The position numbers and the translations under genes were made by a program. Under the pieces are notes generated by a model. The model searched no databases. It was not told the origin of the DNA and worked only from the letters and a program-made list of their open reading frames with translations. From Caldilineaceae bacterium (GTDB taxonomy: Bacteria > Chloroflexota > Anaerolineae > Caldilineales > Caldilineaceae): a stretch of 35,915 nucleotides of DNA. Positions 7,802 to 22,660 of this stretch are shown here, piece after piece. Numbering within the stretch: the first letter of the stretch is position 1; the number at the start of each line of letters is the position of its first letter. The stretch is taken from NCBI GenBank assembly GCA_026705565.1, contig JAPPAJ010000191.1:1-35915 (forward strand), given 5' to 3'.

Positions 7802-8884
7802 TTACGCAGCTGCCGGCTGGACGGAACCCGATTCGCTGCTCCGGCACGCCGCATCGGCCACGGCCATGGTCCTGAAGGCATCCGCGACCGAGGTCGGCAG
7901 TTCCGTGTCCTCACCGTTCACAAAGCGCATGAGGCTGCCCATGCTACCGATGAAGGCGTCGGGAAACCAGCCGGCCTCCAGTGCCAGGGAATGCCATTCG
8001 GGTTGGGCGGCTCCGGGAGCGGAAAGGCAGTAGTCAAACCGGTCGGGCACCCCTTCGGGATAATTCATGAGGATGCCCAGGGTAGCCTTGATGGCCCCGG
8101 ATGTTCCCTCCCATTTCACATGGGCTTCCTGGTGCCGCAGGCCGTACCGGTGGAAGTGGTTGGTATCGATATGGACGCGCAGCATGGGGTGATAGTCCAG
8201 CGCGATCAGCGACCGGGAACTCGTCATGGCCGGCAGATTCGGATGCGAGACGGACAGTCCCTGCACGCCTGCGGGTTCGCCCAGGAAGGAGCGGACCAGG
8301 TCGATGTGGTGGATGCTGTGGTAGTAAATCTCGGCATGCGGCAAGCCCTGGAGAAAGGGCCACATGTGCCAGGGGGTTTCGACGCAGACCCGAATCTCCA
8401 GATCGACGATGTCACCGATCGCACCCTGGTCGATCAGGCTGCGGGCCGCCAGTACGAAGGGAGCCCACCGCATCTGGAAGTTGACGGCCGCGATCATGCC
8501 CTTTTGATTGCAAATGTCCCGGAGGATACGGGCCTGTTCCAGGTTGTCGCCAAGGGGTTTCTGGATGAGGACGGGGCTCCCATTGGGCAGCTCGGGCAGG
8601 ACCGACGCGATGTGGGTCGCGGGCACGGCCACGTCGAATACAGCATCGGCCGGTGCCTTGCGGACCGCTTCGGCCAGGGAGGCATGAACTGTTGGCACCC
8701 CGAACTTGCCCGCCATGTACTCGGCCCGGTCGGTCCGGGGATCGAAGAGGCCCGCCACCGGGTAGCCGGCCTTGGCATAGGCTGGATAGTGGGCATCGTG
8801 CACGATGCCGCCGGCCCCGATGCTGACAATCGGCCGCGGTGTGCACGGTCTGGGTATGAACTGGTTGACGGTTGGCGATGGCAT
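7802..8884 (-). CDS. Gfo/Idh/MocA family oxidoreductase
   Basis: N-terminal Rossmann IVSIGAGGIVHDAHYPAYAKAGYPVAGLFDP; VLIQKPLGDNLEQARIL (EKP-like motif); HSIHHIDLVRSFLGEP. Confidence 0.9.
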   Translation of the reverse strand: MPSPTVNQFIPRPCTPRPIVSIGAGGIVHDAHYPAYAKAGYPVAGLFDPRTDRAEYMAGKFGVPTVHASLAEAVRKAPADAVFDVAVPATHIASVLPELPNGSPVLIQKPLGDNLEQARILRDICNQKGMIAAVNFQMRWAPFVLAARSLIDQGAIGDIVDLEIRVCVETPWHMWPFLQGLPHAEIYYHSIHHIDLVRSFLGEPAGVQGLSVSHPNLPAMTSSRSLIALDYHPMLRVHIDTNHFHRYGLRHQEAHVKWEGTSGAIKATLGILMNYPEGVPDRFDYCLSAPGAAQPEWHSLALEAGWFPDAFIGSMGSLMRFVNGEDTELPTSVADAFRTMAVADAACRSSESGSVQPAAA

Positions 8885-16339: not shown

Positions 16340-17386
16340 TCATGGGGCTTCCGCCAGCCAGTCGGTGTTGAACCGGGCCAGGGTGAGGGTCTCGTAGGGC
16401 CCGTCAATCCCTCTTTCGTAGAGGCACAGGGCGGTTCCCTCGGCCGAAACGGCCAAGTCGCTGTACGCAGCTGGTCCAGCGTGGAGCAGCTTGGCTTGCG
16501 GCCAGGAATGCCCCTCGTCCGCGCTGAGTCGAACAGTCATCCGGATTCGGTCGGTGGCGGATGCCGGATTGGCGAACAGCAGGCCGTTGGTGGCCTGGGG
16601 CCAGCGGACGATGCTGGCCTGACAGACAGGTTCGACCAGAGCTTGGTCCCACCGAAACTCCTCGAAGGAGGAACCGAGATCCCGGCTGATGGCGACGGCC
16701 CGTTGGCTTCGTTGCGCGTAGTTGCGGCAGTTGATCATGACGTCGCCGTTCAGCAGTTCCACCACCTCGCATTCGTTGGTTCCGTCCCTGACAATGCCGC
16801 CAATGTGCCAAGTGATGCCGCCGTCGTCGCTGTAGACGACATGGGAATGGTAGGGATCCCTGGTTCGGTCCAGGTGAATGCCGACCATGTGATCACAGGG
16901 CACCACCATGCGTCCCGATTGCAGCTGGATGCCGTGGCCCGGCCCGGTCGCGTACCAAGTCCAGTCGGGCCGCATCACCCTGTCGGTCATGTCGACCGGC
17001 TCACTCCAGGTTTCCCCGTCGTCCAGGCTGTGGGTGAGCCAGACCGTGCGTTTGGCCTTGCCCTGAACGATGAGTCCTTCCCCGCCTTCAGCGGTGTTCT
17101 TGCAGAACCAGAGCCAGATGGTACCGGTGGCACTGTCCTGGACCGGACACGGATTGCCACACGTCATGTCATCTTCCTTGACCACGACCCGGAGGTCGGA
17201 CCAGGAGGCGCCATGGTCATGGCTGTGGCGCAGGACCAGTTCGATGGTGCCTGCATCACCGGGTCCGTGGACGCGGCCTTCGGCAAAGGCCAGCACGCGT
17301 CCACTGCTCAACGTCAGCAGGGCCGGAATGCGGAAGGTGTGGTACCCAAGGGTTCCGCTCTGGAACAGTACTTGCTCAGCCAGCAT
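16340..17386 (-). CDS. Exo-alpha-sialidase-like protein (GH33/BNR repeat)
   Basis: FRIP-type motif YHTFRIPALLTLSSGRVLAFAEGR; Asp-boxes SHDHGASW, SLDDGETW, SDDGGITW, SADEGHSW; no N-terminal signal peptide visible. Confidence 0.85.
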   Translation of the reverse strand: MLAEQVLFQSGTLGYHTFRIPALLTLSSGRVLAFAEGRVHGPGDAGTIELVLRHSHDHGASWSDLRVVVKEDDMTCGNPCPVQDSATGTIWLWFCKNTAEGGEGLIVQGKAKRTVWLTHSLDDGETWSEPVDMTDRVMRPDWTWYATGPGHGIQLQSGRMVVPCDHMVGIHLDRTRDPYHSHVVYSDDGGITWHIGGIVRDGTNECEVVELLNGDVMINCRNYAQRSQRAVAISRDLGSSFEEFRWDQALVEPVCQASIVRWPQATNGLLFANPASATDRIRMTVRLSADEGHSWPQAKLLHAGPAAYSDLAVSAEGTALCLYERGIDGPYETLTLARFNTDWLAEAP

Positions 17387-17490: not shown

Positions 17491-18294
17491 CTACGCGCCG
17501 TCCCGGGACTCAAAACCCAGCGCCTGCCGCGAAGGTTCCAGGTCGACCCAGCGATGCCGATTGTCCGAAATCCCGTAGCAGATGTGGAAACAGGGCGATG
17601 CGGTCGCCTGCAGCGCGAGTTCGATGATGTTGGCTACGTCCCGCTGGCTGCACCAGAGGGAATCGGTCCAGCCAAACAGGCTGCGGTCCTCCTTGTTGAC
17701 GGCCCCGATGCGCAGGCACACGGTGGCGATGTCGTGGGCATCGTGGTAGGTCCGGCAAATGCCTTCTCCCCAGACCTTGCTGGCCGAATAGGGTTCGGTG
17801 GGACGGGGCGGATCCGCAGGCGTAATTAGGGGAATATCCTCCGGTACATCCTCAAAGCGCTCTTCGCGGATGGCGTTGTAGGGTTCCTGATAGTAGAAGT
17901 AACCCATGGTGGCCATGACGGAACTGGCATATACCAGGCGCTTGACCCCGGCTGCCCGACAGGCTTCCAGCATGTTGTAGGTTCCGACCACGTTGCTGTG
18001 CAGCACGTCCTCGAACGAGGCCGCGGGGTCCGGCACCGCCCCGATGTGCAGTACGGCGTCCATGCCGGCGATGGCTTGCATCATGGCATCGGCATCCCCC
18101 AGATCGGCCTGCACGAAGTGCGTGTCCGGCAGCCGTATCAGTGAATCGGCATCGGCCCGGGTGGAACTGGCGGAACGGCGGCTGCTGCCGTGGACGTCAT
18201 AGCGTTCCGGTTGTCTGTTGAGATGGCCGTAGACAAGATTGCCGATGAGGCCGTACACGCCTGTAATGTGCACTTTCAGAGGATTGTTTGACAT
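17491..18294 (-). CDS. NAD-dependent epimerase/dehydratase family protein, uronate-dehydrogenase-like
   Basis: Start at MSNNPLKVHITGVYGLIGNLVYGHL; MDAVLHIGAVPDPAASFEDVLHSNVVGTYNMLEACRAAGVKRLVYASS; PYSASKVWGE; CLRIGAVNKEDRSLFGWTDSLWCSQRDVANIIELAL resembles Udh C-terminal motifs. Confidence 0.8.
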   Translation of the reverse strand: MSNNPLKVHITGVYGLIGNLVYGHLNRQPERYDVHGSSRRSASSTRADADSLIRLPDTHFVQADLGDADAMMQAIAGMDAVLHIGAVPDPAASFEDVLHSNVVGTYNMLEACRAAGVKRLVYASSVMATMGYFYYQEPYNAIREERFEDVPEDIPLITPADPPRPTEPYSASKVWGEGICRTYHDAHDIATVCLRIGAVNKEDRSLFGWTDSLWCSQRDVANIIELALQATASPCFHICYGISDNRHRWVDLEPSRQALGFESRDGA

Positions 18295-18441: not shown

Positions 18442-19854
18442 TCAGGCGCGCACGCGCAGGAAGATGCTGTCCCCCCGCACTTCGACGGGATAGGTTTGCA
18501 GGCTACCGCAGGCAGGCGAGCGGACCGCATCGCCGCTGACGATGTCGAAGCGTCCGTTGTGGAGCGGGCACTCGATGACGCCATCGAAGACGATGCCGTC
18601 GGTCAGGTCGGCGTATTCATGGGTGCAGAGGCCGTCGGTGGCATGGTAGGCATCCCCTTCCAGACGGCACACGGCGAAAAACCGGCCGCCGTGGTCCACG
18701 CGCACAACATCGTTTTCTTCGAGTGCGCCCACGGGACAGACTTCGATCCACTCGCTGTCCGCAGTGGCTGCGGCCACGGATTCCACTTCTGCAGACTTGC
18801 CCTGTTCCGTGGGGATGGGCCGCATGATCTGGTAGCTCGCGTCTTCCGTCGCCTGCTTGATCAGCGCCGGAATCATCTCCTTGTACACCGCCCATAAGTT
18901 CGGGTAGGCGGGCGGCATCTGATCCTTCACTGCTTCATGGAACCGGCCCAGCGCGTGGTAGGGAACCATCGGCACGGAGTGGTGCTCGATGTGGTAGTTC
19001 ATGTTCATGTACAGATAGCGGTAGACCGGGTTGACAAACACGGTGCGGGTGTTTTCGCGGTGGTCGTGCGTGTCTTCCCCGAGACCTGCGTGCTGTGTCA
19101 GGCCAAGCAGCTGATGCAGCCATCCTCCGTAGAACCGCGGCAGGAGGACGAACATCATGGGCAGAAAGCTCCAGATCGCAATCGACCAAATGGCGAAGCC
19201 GACGATAATCGCCACGTAGACGCGACTCGACCAGTACATCTTGTTCCGTTCGGACTCCGGCACGAAGTGCCGCACGTCCGGACCGGGTCTGCCAAACGCA
19301 TTGCGCACCACGCGCCAGACTTCGGGTGGCCCGCTCCGCAGGTAGAGGAAGTCCATCACGATCTTCAGCAGATCGGCGGGCCGCTGCACCTGAATTTCGG
19401 GATCGAGGCCCACGAAGTAGGTGTCCGTATGGTGGCGCGAATGGCTCCAGCGCCACATGTATGCCTCCCGCAGGGTCAGAAACGAACTGATGTGGTAGAA
19501 GAGTTCGTTCAACCACTGGGTTCGGAACGGTGTTCCGTGCCCGCACTCGTGCCATCGGGCATCCGACGACGAATAGATGGTTCCGTAAATCAGGAACGCG
19601 GGAATGGCCCACCATGTCCCCCAAGCGGATACCGCCCATGCGGCGCTGGCGGCGAGCAGCACAAACCAGAGGCCGAAATGCACCAGGGCAGGGCCGTCGG
19701 TGCGTTCCATGAAGGCGCGCATCTCCTGGCGCGGCAGCGTGGGCTTCCACCAAACGCCGTCCATCCGCGACTCGATGTCGAAATCGTCCAAGGGAACGGC
19801 TCGCTCGGTGACTCCGGTGAGCGAATAGTCCCTTGGCATTGCCTGTACGCTCAT
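18442..19854 (-). CDS. Fatty acid desaturase/MocD-like di-iron oxygenase fused to a C-terminal Rieske [2Fe-2S] ferredoxin domain
   Basis: His boxes HECGH, HSRHH, HIEHH plus TQHAGLGEDTHDHRENTRTVF; C-terminal Rieske ligands CTH-x16-CPLH (CTHEYADLTDGIVFDGVIECPLHNGRFDI) in one uninterrupted 470-aa ORF. Confidence 0.92.
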   Translation of the reverse strand: MSVQAMPRDYSLTGVTERAVPLDDFDIESRMDGVWWKPTLPRQEMRAFMERTDGPALVHFGLWFVLLAASAAWAVSAWGTWWAIPAFLIYGTIYSSSDARWHECGHGTPFRTQWLNELFYHISSFLTLREAYMWRWSHSRHHTDTYFVGLDPEIQVQRPADLLKIVMDFLYLRSGPPEVWRVVRNAFGRPGPDVRHFVPESERNKMYWSSRVYVAIIVGFAIWSIAIWSFLPMMFVLLPRFYGGWLHQLLGLTQHAGLGEDTHDHRENTRTVFVNPVYRYLYMNMNYHIEHHSVPMVPYHALGRFHEAVKDQMPPAYPNLWAVYKEMIPALIKQATEDASYQIMRPIPTEQGKSAEVESVAAATADSEWIEVCPVGALEENDVVRVDHGGRFFAVCRLEGDAYHATDGLCTHEYADLTDGIVFDGVIECPLHNGRFDIVSGDAVRSPACGSLQTYPVEVRGDSIFLRVRA

Positions 19855-20136: not shown

Positions 20137-21405
20137 TTACAAGCCGGATCTGAGGGCCTGGCGCCATTTGACCGGCATGCGTCTGCCCAGCTTGATGCGT
20201 TTCGCGCCCAGGAATGTTCCCAGATCCCTCATCGTCCGGACGAGGCAGTCGGCGAGGTGCAGATCCTGCTTCCGGCCCTCTTCGAGATAGAGAGCCTTGA
20301 AGTGCAGTTCGTACCGCTTACGGTCCATCTCGGTGTCCACGCGCCCGAGCATTGAGTCGCCAGCCAGGATAGGTAGGACGTAGTACCCGTAGCGGCGCTT
20401 GACCACCGGCACGTAAATTTCGATTGTGAAGTCAAAGCCAAACAGGGGCAGGTTGCGTCTGCGGTCGCAAATCAGGTTGTCGAACGGGGACAGCAGCACG
20501 GTACGGCCCTCCCAGTTCGAGTCGGCCTCCAGGCGCTGCAGCATCTCGGCATCCTCGGCATGGACCATCCACGAGCCGGGCATGGTCCTGTTGTCCGAGT
20601 CCACCAGTTCGACCGGTAGGATGGTTCCATCCGCTGCCAGGGATGCCAGGACCGACTCCAGGTCGGGATAGGCGCGGCGCATGAAGTGTTGCCTGATGTC
20701 CCGGGCCGTACCAGTGCCCAATGCCTTCAGGGCGAGTGGCACGGCCCGGCGGCAAAACTCGTCCGGGGTCATGGATGTGCGATCGGCCCACGGCGGCAGG
20801 AACTCGTCGGTGAGGTGCCAGACCTTGCGGTTGCCGGAGCGCTGCGCCACCATCAACTCGCCGCGGAAAAACAGGTGGTCCAGCATGCGCGGCACGCTGC
20901 GTCCGCTCGTCCAGCCGGTGGAGTGCCAGGGCACGTGTGGCACGTCCACCGTGATGTCCTGTGAGGCCAACGGGCCGCGTGTCCGGAACTCCTCCCTGAT
21001 TTGTGCCAACAGGGCTCCGTTTTGCTTCACCCATTGGGCCGTGCGACTGCCGTCCGTCTCGCTGGTCGCGGCAAAGGCCTGCATCCGGTGGTGGAACAAC
21101 GGGTAGTCGTCCATCAGGCAGATGGAGGCGCAGTGGGCCCAGTTTTCGAAGAAGAGCCTGTCGGTGTAGAGCAGTTCGTTGAGCAGTCCCGGATCGAAGT
21201 TGCCCAGGCGGCTCCACAGCGCCAGCAGTTCGGTTCGTTCCACGGCCCGGATCGGATCAATCTGGATGCAGCGGAGGGCCTCCAGCACCTTGCGAATGGC
21301 CCGTTTGTCGGTCTCGGACCGAAGCAGTGCGTGGCTGTCGAGCAGTTGTTTGTGGATGGCGAGGCGCCGTGCCGCCTTGAGCGGGATCTTCAGGGGAGAA
21401 GGCAT
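20137..21405 (-). CDS. Winged-helix DNA-binding protein of the YcaQ/AlkX (HTH_42) family
   Basis: Start at MPSPLKIPLKAARRLAIHKQLL; RCIQIDPIRAVERTELLALWSRLGNF; FENWAHCASICLMDDYPLFHHRM; LLSPFDNLICDRRRNLPLFGFDFTIEIYVPVVKRRYGYYVLPILAGDSMLGRVDTEMDR. Confidence 0.85.
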   Translation of the reverse strand: MPSPLKIPLKAARRLAIHKQLLDSHALLRSETDKRAIRKVLEALRCIQIDPIRAVERTELLALWSRLGNFDPGLLNELLYTDRLFFENWAHCASICLMDDYPLFHHRMQAFAATSETDGSRTAQWVKQNGALLAQIREEFRTRGPLASQDITVDVPHVPWHSTGWTSGRSVPRMLDHLFFRGELMVAQRSGNRKVWHLTDEFLPPWADRTSMTPDEFCRRAVPLALKALGTGTARDIRQHFMRRAYPDLESVLASLAADGTILPVELVDSDNRTMPGSWMVHAEDAEMLQRLEADSNWEGRTVLLSPFDNLICDRRRNLPLFGFDFTIEIYVPVVKRRYGYYVLPILAGDSMLGRVDTEMDRKRYELHFKALYLEEGRKQDLHLADCLVRTMRDLGTFLGAKRIKLGRRMPVKWRQALRSGL

Positions 21406-21424
21406 GTCGACGTCATTCCGCAGG

Positions 21425-22660
21425 TCAAACCGAGTCGAGCGCTTCCAGGACCGTATCCACTTCGTCCTCGGTGTTGTAGTGGGCAAAGCCAATACGGAGC
21501 ACGCCCCCTGACTGTTCCACGCCCAAGGCTTCGGCGACGGCCAGGGCGTAGAAGTTGCCGTCCCAAGCAAAGATGTTGCGTTCGGCCAGGTGGACGGCCA
21601 GCTGCCGGGGTGTGGTTCCTTCCCGCCGCAGGGCAAAGGTGGGCACCCGGTCGGTGGCGGAGGGTAGGCCGTAGAGTCTGTAACCGGCCAGGTTGCGGAG
21701 TCCCTCCAGGAAGCGGTTCATCAGGTTTCGCTCGTGCTCCCGGATCAGTCCGAACGCAGTCTCAATCATGTCGCGCCGGGAGGCGGAGATGAGCAGATCG
21801 GGATCGCCGGCTGCCAACGACGAAATGTACTGGATGCAGGCGCAGAAGCCGGCCAGCGCCTCGAAGTTCGAAGTGCCAATCTCGAACTTCCCGGGCAGCG
21901 ATCCGTCGTGGGCCCTGACCTGATAGGCGGGGAGCCGGTTGAGATGGCGCTCCTTCCCGTACAGGATGCCCAGGTGGGGCCCGAAGTGCTTGTAGGCGCT
22001 GGTCACCAGGAAGTCGCAGTCCAGGGCGCGCACGTCCAGCAGGCCGTGGGGCGCGTAGTGCACCGCGTCCACATACACCATGGCGCCGGCGGCACGGGCC
22101 CAGGAGGCGATGTGGGCCACGGGATTGATGGAACCGGAGAAGTTGCTGGCCAGGCCCACCGCAATCAGGCGCGTGCGTCGGCCAATCAGCGACCGCAGCT
22201 GCTCCAGGTTCAGCGTGCACGTTTCCCGGTTGATCCGCGCCCAATGGACGACCAGGTTGCGCTCCTCGGCCATCTGCAGCCAGGGCGCGATGTTGGCCTC
22301 GTGGTCCAGTTCCGAAATGATGATTTCGTCCCCGTGGCTCAGGGTGCGGCCCACGCTGCGGCTGATCAGATAGGTCAGGCTGGTCATGTTGGCGCCGAAC
22401 ACGACTTCCTGCGGGGCACAGTGCATGAAGTCGGCGGCCAGCCGATGGGCTTCCGCCACGACTTCGTCCGTGGCGATGCTGGTTGCGAACTGGCCCCCCG
22501 TGTTGGCCATGAAGCGACCCAGGTACTCCTGCATGGCCATGACCACGGATTCCGGCATCTGTGAGCCGCCCGGACTGTCGCAGAACACCGCGGGCACGCC
22601 GTCATAGTGCTCTTGGAGCGAAGGGAACTGGCTGCGGACATGGTTCAGTTGCAGAGGCAC
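21425..22660 (-). CDS. Aminotransferase class V, cysteine-desulfurase-like protein
   Basis: FCDSPGGSQMPESVVMAMQEYLG; VYVDAVHYAPHGLLDVRALDCDFLVTSAYKHFGPHLGILYGK (PLP lysine region); GVLRIGFAHYNTEDEVDTVLEAL. Confidence 0.9.
   Translation of the reverse strand: MPLQLNHVRSQFPSLQEHYDGVPAVFCDSPGGSQMPESVVMAMQEYLGRFMANTGGQFATSIATDEVVAEAHRLAADFMHCAPQEVVFGANMTSLTYLISRSVGRTLSHGDEIIISELDHEANIAPWLQMAEERNLVVHWARINRETCTLNLEQLRSLIGRRTRLIAVGLASNFSGSINPVAHIASWARAAGAMVYVDAVHYAPHGLLDVRALDCDFLVTSAYKHFGPHLGILYGKERHLNRLPAYQVRAHDGSLPGKFEIGTSNFEALAGFCACIQYISSLAAGDPDLLISASRRDMIETAFGLIREHERNLMNRFLEGLRNLAGYRLYGLPSATDRVPTFALRREGTTPRQLAVHLAERNIFAWDGNFYALAVAEALGVEQSGGVLRIGFAHYNTEDEVDTVLEALDSV

Follow-up and report, generated by a model that had tools for sequence, protein, structure and literature searches.

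A fused MocD-MocE-like protein of Caldilineaceae as a candidate Rieske-fed membrane di-iron O-demethylase

We analysed a 35,915-nucleotide stretch of DNA from a Caldilineaceae bacterium (contig JAPPAJ010000191.1, assembly GCA_026705565.1), referred to as the window, and found on its minus strand a fused mocDE-like gene (18442-19854, ATG start) encoding a single protein of 470 residues with conserved full-length relatives, in which a MocD-like di-iron oxygenase domain is followed by a MocE-like Rieske ferredoxin domain. The reading that we favour, at a probability of roughly 0.6, is that this protein is a Rieske-fed membrane di-iron monooxygenase, whose most probable reaction is the O-demethylation of methylated cyclitols or sugars.

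Results

Domains and metal-ligand motifs

An initial annotation of the window had described one 470-residue open reading frame carrying a full set of His boxes together with a CTH-x16-CPLH motif, and this was confirmed by Pfam searches and motif scans, in which the PF00487 and PF00355 matches both exceeded their gathering scores. The FA_desaturase-fold membrane di-iron oxygenase domain spans residues 80-322 (18889-19617, PF00487 E = 1.5e-33; this and all other features of the fusion lie on the minus strand). It contains His box 1 (HECGH, residues 102-106, 19537-19551), His box 2 (HSRHH, residues 138-142, 19429-19443) and His box 3 (HIEHH, residues 288-292, 18979-18993), each located by motif scan and alignment. 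Two further residue pairs are nearly invariant: QH at 254-255 (19090-19095, within QHAGL at 254) is likely part of the di-iron site, and DH at 264-265 (19060-19065, within DTHDH at 261) may have a role there as well. The MocE-like Rieske [2Fe-2S] ferredoxin domain occupies residues 368-456 (18487-18753, PF00355 E = 1.7e-17), where the ligand motifs CTH (residues 410-412, 18619-18627) and CPLH (residues 429-432, 18559-18570) keep the spacing CxH-x16-CxxH. Neither metal site is lost on alignment, the ligand motifs being intact and the His-box histidines showing almost no variation across 30 sequences. By far the top NCBIfam match of the C-terminal domain was the MocE family TIGR02377 (113 bits over residues 368-465, under the membership cut-off of 136 bits).

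An AlphaFold2 model, for which an alignment of 30 sequences was used with the plasmid-record rows and two three-module proteins (see below) excluded, had a mean pLDDT of 84.7 and a pTM of 0.84; confidence was low at the N-terminus and in the interdomain linker (residues 351-367, 18754-18804), with pLDDT <50 at 351-360. In a fold search the Rieske part matched well and the oxygenase part loosely, and the solved structures most similar to the C-terminal domain were the Rieske ferredoxins of NDO, CarAc and BphA3. At ranks 19 and 22 of the same search stood long, loose matches (TM ~0.45-0.58) to one chain of the chloroplast FtsHi motor complex (8xqw_M, 8xks_K).

The fusion is genuine and under selection

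Relatives from separate genomes aligned to residues 1-468 free of stops. Matches running stop-free through both domains were present in 4 of 4 genomes of the window's genus and 17 of 17 genomes of a sister genus within Caldilineaceae, and three of the fusion-bearing genomes of the family are single-contig chromosomes. Purifying selection acts strongly on each of the two domains (dN/dS = 0.045-0.074 for the desaturase domain, residues 35-350, and 0.068-0.122 for the Rieske domain), and dN/dS of the linker, where computable, was above that of either domain; linker length also differs among fused relatives. An alternative is that an assembly error or a frameshift joined two genes, and one relative within the fused clade (L023) is indeed split by a short gap, indicating that the boundary can break or be in error. 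This explanation, which we regard as having virtually no chance of being correct, was ruled out by the recurrence of the fusion in many separate assemblies, the three single-contig chromosomes among them, and by the low dN/dS flanking the open linker on both sides. The natural fusion proposed in the initial annotation thus stands. The split copy itself (L023:3062-4546) comes from a MAG named Bacteroidetes, and a frameshift or binning error is possible there.

Distribution and history of the fusion

A scan with a single genome for each species recovered full-length fusions in three further Caldilineales MAGs (92-97% identity) and, at 64-75% identity, in many members of the Caldilineaceae as well as some Chloroflexota outside that family. 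Many sister-genus genomes carry two tandem fused copies, and in some a third is present, more divergent and with its two domains farther apart in the linker. Frequencies were then estimated at a threshold of E <= 1e-60 in genomes sampled per phylum or class. The phylum sample (n = 400) gave two further genomes with the fusion. In the class of Phyllobacterium, 14 of 385 sampled genomes had a MocD-like match, and among the matches listed none extends into the Rieske domain; in the class of the spirochaete relative, 9 of 347 had a match, at least three of them fused. The only match among 369 genomes from the class of Leeia was Leeia itself, where the genes are split, and the only one among 345 from the class of the Bacteroidales MAG was that MAG, where they are fused.

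The desaturase-domain tree comprised 58 rows; its rhizobial MocD members carry homology-based annotations, and the set did not extend to the genetically studied MocD of S. meliloti L5-30 or to lipid desaturases of known function. The window sequence belongs, with strong support, to a clade made up of fusions from Caldilineaceae and Anaerolineae, outside which the nearest sequences are split genes of Acetobacteraceae, Trinickia and Caballeronia. Its desaturase domain clusters with mocD genes adjoining mocE or mocF and not with general desaturases; three further desaturase-family proteins from this bacterial family are set apart by a long branch with full support. The fused state occurs in four separate clades and requires five changes, the fifth being the split L023 within the fused clade. 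Since such counts cannot separate gain from loss, four independent fusions would be the simplest, though not the only, reading; the Rieske-domain tree was too short to settle how many fusions occurred.

Split mocD-mocE-mocF relatives

Among two-gene relatives, the nearest are neighbouring mocD and mocE genes of Proteobacteria, with a reductase gene next in several cases, and this, together with the grouping in the tree, upholds the identification of the two halves as MocD and MocE. Plasmid records contain 462 relatives, each at <60% identity, and the annotated ones among the matches listed have adjoining desaturase and MocE/Rieske genes. Rhizobial mocD-mocE pairs showed 44-47% identity to the fusion. 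In R. etli CIAT 652 the annotated mocD, mocEa and mocFa genes are accompanied by a divergent LacI-family gene and a sugar-epimerase gene, an arrangement that has been discussed for mocDEF (PMC3538637); in Leeia, a LacI-family gene, mocD, mocE and a gene for a mocF-like reductase are grouped. In Rhizobium sp. Q54, mocDEF sits in an inositol catabolic cluster, where its neighbours are annotated as inositol 2-dehydrogenase, 5-dehydro-2-deoxygluconokinase, an ABC transporter, a rhizopine-binding protein and Gfo/Idh/MocA proteins; the first of these passes TIGR04380 above its cut-off, and support for the rhizopine-binding label is weak (39.6 of 420 bits with the curated model). The mocDEF genes have been reported as a rhizopine-inducible catabolic unit (PMC10107442), and MocD has been described as the oxygenase turning 3-O-MSI into SI (PMC2593844). 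Right after mocDEF in both R. etli and S. meliloti lies a gene for a PanB-like hydroxymethyltransferase (L054:11694-12503; L100:10873-11673), which might process a one-carbon product.

Genomic neighbourhood

The fusion is followed, 147 bp downstream on the same strand, by an SDR/epimerase-family dehydrogenase (17491-18294, minus strand), whose best NCBIfam match was the glucose-6-phosphate dehydrogenase Azf (135 bits, cut-off 400), and then by a BNR-repeat, sialidase-like protein (16340-17386, minus strand). The order fusion-SDR-BNR is kept in two other species (L004 and L005), where the SDR gene again comes directly after the fusion; in L031 it lies ~2.8 kb off. A scan for promoters and terminators detected sites no more numerous than in shuffled sequences, so that a transcription unit is unproven. 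Upstream of the fusion is a gene for an AlkZ-like DNA glycosylase family protein (20137-21636, minus strand). The genes adjacent to the fusion are those for the SDR and the BNR protein, and the locus contains no inositol or rhizopine catabolic genes; no clear inositol or formaldehyde-handling genes were found among the window's own neighbours, and a weak Gfo/Idh/MocA protein is encoded 10 kb from the fusion, at 7802-8884. The SDR and BNR neighbours do not fix the substrate.

Elsewhere in the host genome, on another contig, is a full-length IolD above the cut-off. IolD was considered as a marker of fusion carriers and rejected, being near-universal in the bacterial family; in sponge-associated Caldilineae, genes for the greater part of the pathway of inositol degradation have been reported (PMC6306507).

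Around relatives, the sister-genus fusions are followed by genes for Gfo/Idh/MocA, IolE-like TIM-barrel and SDR proteins. Compared with their counterparts in Q54, the Gfo/Idh and SDR proteins showed only 28-30% identity and the downstream TIM barrel no useful similarity, so the two clusters appear alike in kind, and orthology would go beyond the evidence. Genes for a corrinoid protein, MtaA/CmuA-like proteins, a methyltetrahydrofolate:corrinoid methyltransferase and methylenetetrahydrofolate reductase surround a three-module fusion (L092:2258-12549), and the L093 relative adjoins a URO-D/MtaA-like gene. Next to the L038 relative is a zinc alcohol dehydrogenase similar to formaldehyde dehydrogenases; this dehydrogenase and an esterase there are under the equivalog cut-offs for formaldehyde enzymes.

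Reductase and three-module relatives

That no ferredoxin reductase is encoded in the window, as first noted from its reading frames, was borne out by genome-wide profile searches: PF14759 and PF00175 gave no match in the host genome (96% complete), and none of the PF07992 matches listed lies on the window's contig. As candidates for a ferredoxin reductase, the PF07992 proteins examined resemble dihydrolipoamide dehydrogenase, a glutaredoxin/thioredoxin-reductase-like protein and an FAD oxidoreductase, and none clearly fits. A MocF-type NAD(P)H-ferredoxin reductase, which would make the locus a MocDEF member, was not found near the fusion. Of the self-delivering hydroxylase suggested by the initial annotation, the tethered ferredoxin of its own is therefore retained, whereas a reductase would still be needed and none of MocF type was found in the genome. 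On another contig of the host (C98:3852-5223), a gene for a 595-residue Rieske-domain protein adjoins that of a glutaredoxin/thioredoxin-reductase-like flavoprotein.

Two Chloroflexota encode three-module fusions in frames of 764 and 773 residues (L087:4429-6711 and L092:6284-8566), in which FA_desaturase, Rieske, FAD_binding_6 and NAD_binding_1 domains are combined; the C-terminal part of the L087 protein passes the NqrF model TIGR01941 (331.5 bits, cut-off 295). This was the most telling of the comparisons: because such a relative joins a reductase to the same two domains, a single electron path is suggested, in which the MocD-like, MocE-like and NqrF-type modules would form one chain.

Discussion

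Proposed mechanism and alternatives

In the mechanism that we propose, neighbouring mocD and mocE genes would have fused, and the product would be a non-haem di-iron monooxygenase, presumably membrane-bound, to which its Rieske ferredoxin is tethered. Electrons from NAD(P)H would enter through a separate reductase, reach the Rieske cluster and pass from there singly to the di-iron centre. That centre may then activate O2 and hydroxylate a small cyclitol or sugar at the carbon of its O-methyl group, and the unstable hydroxylated product would lose formaldehyde to leave a free hydroxyl for ordinary inositol or sugar catabolism. The O-methyl bond is the probable target because of the reported role of MocD (PMC2593844) and the neighbour genes in relatives, and with this backing from relatives O-demethylation by the fusion is plausible. 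Counting against it are the score of the Rieske domain, which falls under the MocE cut-off, the failure to find a MocF-type reductase in a 96%-complete genome, the unspecific neighbours in the window itself, the near-universal presence of IolD in the family and the sub-threshold scores of the L038 dehydrogenase and esterase.

Other FA_desaturase-fold enzymes hydroxylate very different molecules, varied polar substrates among them, and the fused enzyme might instead act on a different small polar compound, by simple hydroxylation or by N-demethylation. Such an activity would be compatible with a weak similarity (19.6 bits) to GntB, the arginine hydroxylase of guanitoxin synthesis, and with the window's SDR and BNR neighbours, neither of which is specific to methylated sugars, but the inositol, sugar and methyl-transfer genes that surround relatives and a much closer kinship with MocD proteins make it unlikely. 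An acyl-lipid desaturase with a Rieske ferredoxin captured to supply its electrons is an identity that we consider decidedly improbable for the protein: although its fold and Pfam name belong to fatty acid desaturases, the curated lipid desaturase model DesB gave only 25.9 bits against a cut-off of 500, sugar and inositol genes adjoin relatives, and the desaturases of the same family branch outside in the tree, which holds no characterised lipid desaturase. The O-demethylase reading could be extended, tentatively, into a broader one: MocD-type oxygenases may have repeatedly absorbed their carriers, the Rieske ferredoxin first and an NqrF-type reductase in two Chloroflexota relatives, to become self-contained O-demethylases of methylated sugars or cyclitols, the window's lineage being one found in sponge-associated bacteria. 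If the guess about the substrate is true, sponge symbionts would use methylated sugars or inositols. The fused protein, and above all its three-module relative, offers a handle on how a Rieske cluster feeds a di-iron site, and also one for assaying MocD chemistry in vitro.

Comparison with known systems

The closest known system is MocD and MocE, with MocF, of rhizobial rhizopine and inositol catabolism, which has the same two domains in the same order but in adjacent genes; the fusion, by contrast, is one polypeptide, with no mocF next door, and no reductase of the MocF type was found in the genome. Covalent linkage of a membrane di-iron monooxygenase to its donor is likewise seen in AlkB-rubredoxin (AlkBG) and ferredoxin-reductase-AlkB fusions (PMC8918992, PMC10113152), though there the donor is rubredoxin, or ferredoxin with a reductase, and not a Rieske protein, and the substrates are alkanes. 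One AlkB-rubredoxin fusion structure has been solved, and the AlkB fusion structure 8f6t gave a marginal sequence match to the protein described here (E = 0.0037). Cytochrome b5-fused desaturases and hydroxylases also have a tethered electron donor (PMC8918992), but it is haem b5 in place of a Rieske cluster, and these are lipid enzymes. The Rieske ferredoxins of ring dioxygenases are separate proteins, and they feed Rieske oxygenases, not di-iron membrane enzymes. A 2022 review, citing Sperling and Heinz 2001, stated that no ferredoxin-fused desaturase had been found (PMC8918992). In the literature that we searched, no fusion of a Rieske domain to an FA_desaturase-fold enzyme was found, and sequence databases may hold it unremarked. 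Rubredoxin and cytochrome b5 fusions are thus what is known, and the Rieske-tethered version appears to be a new variant.
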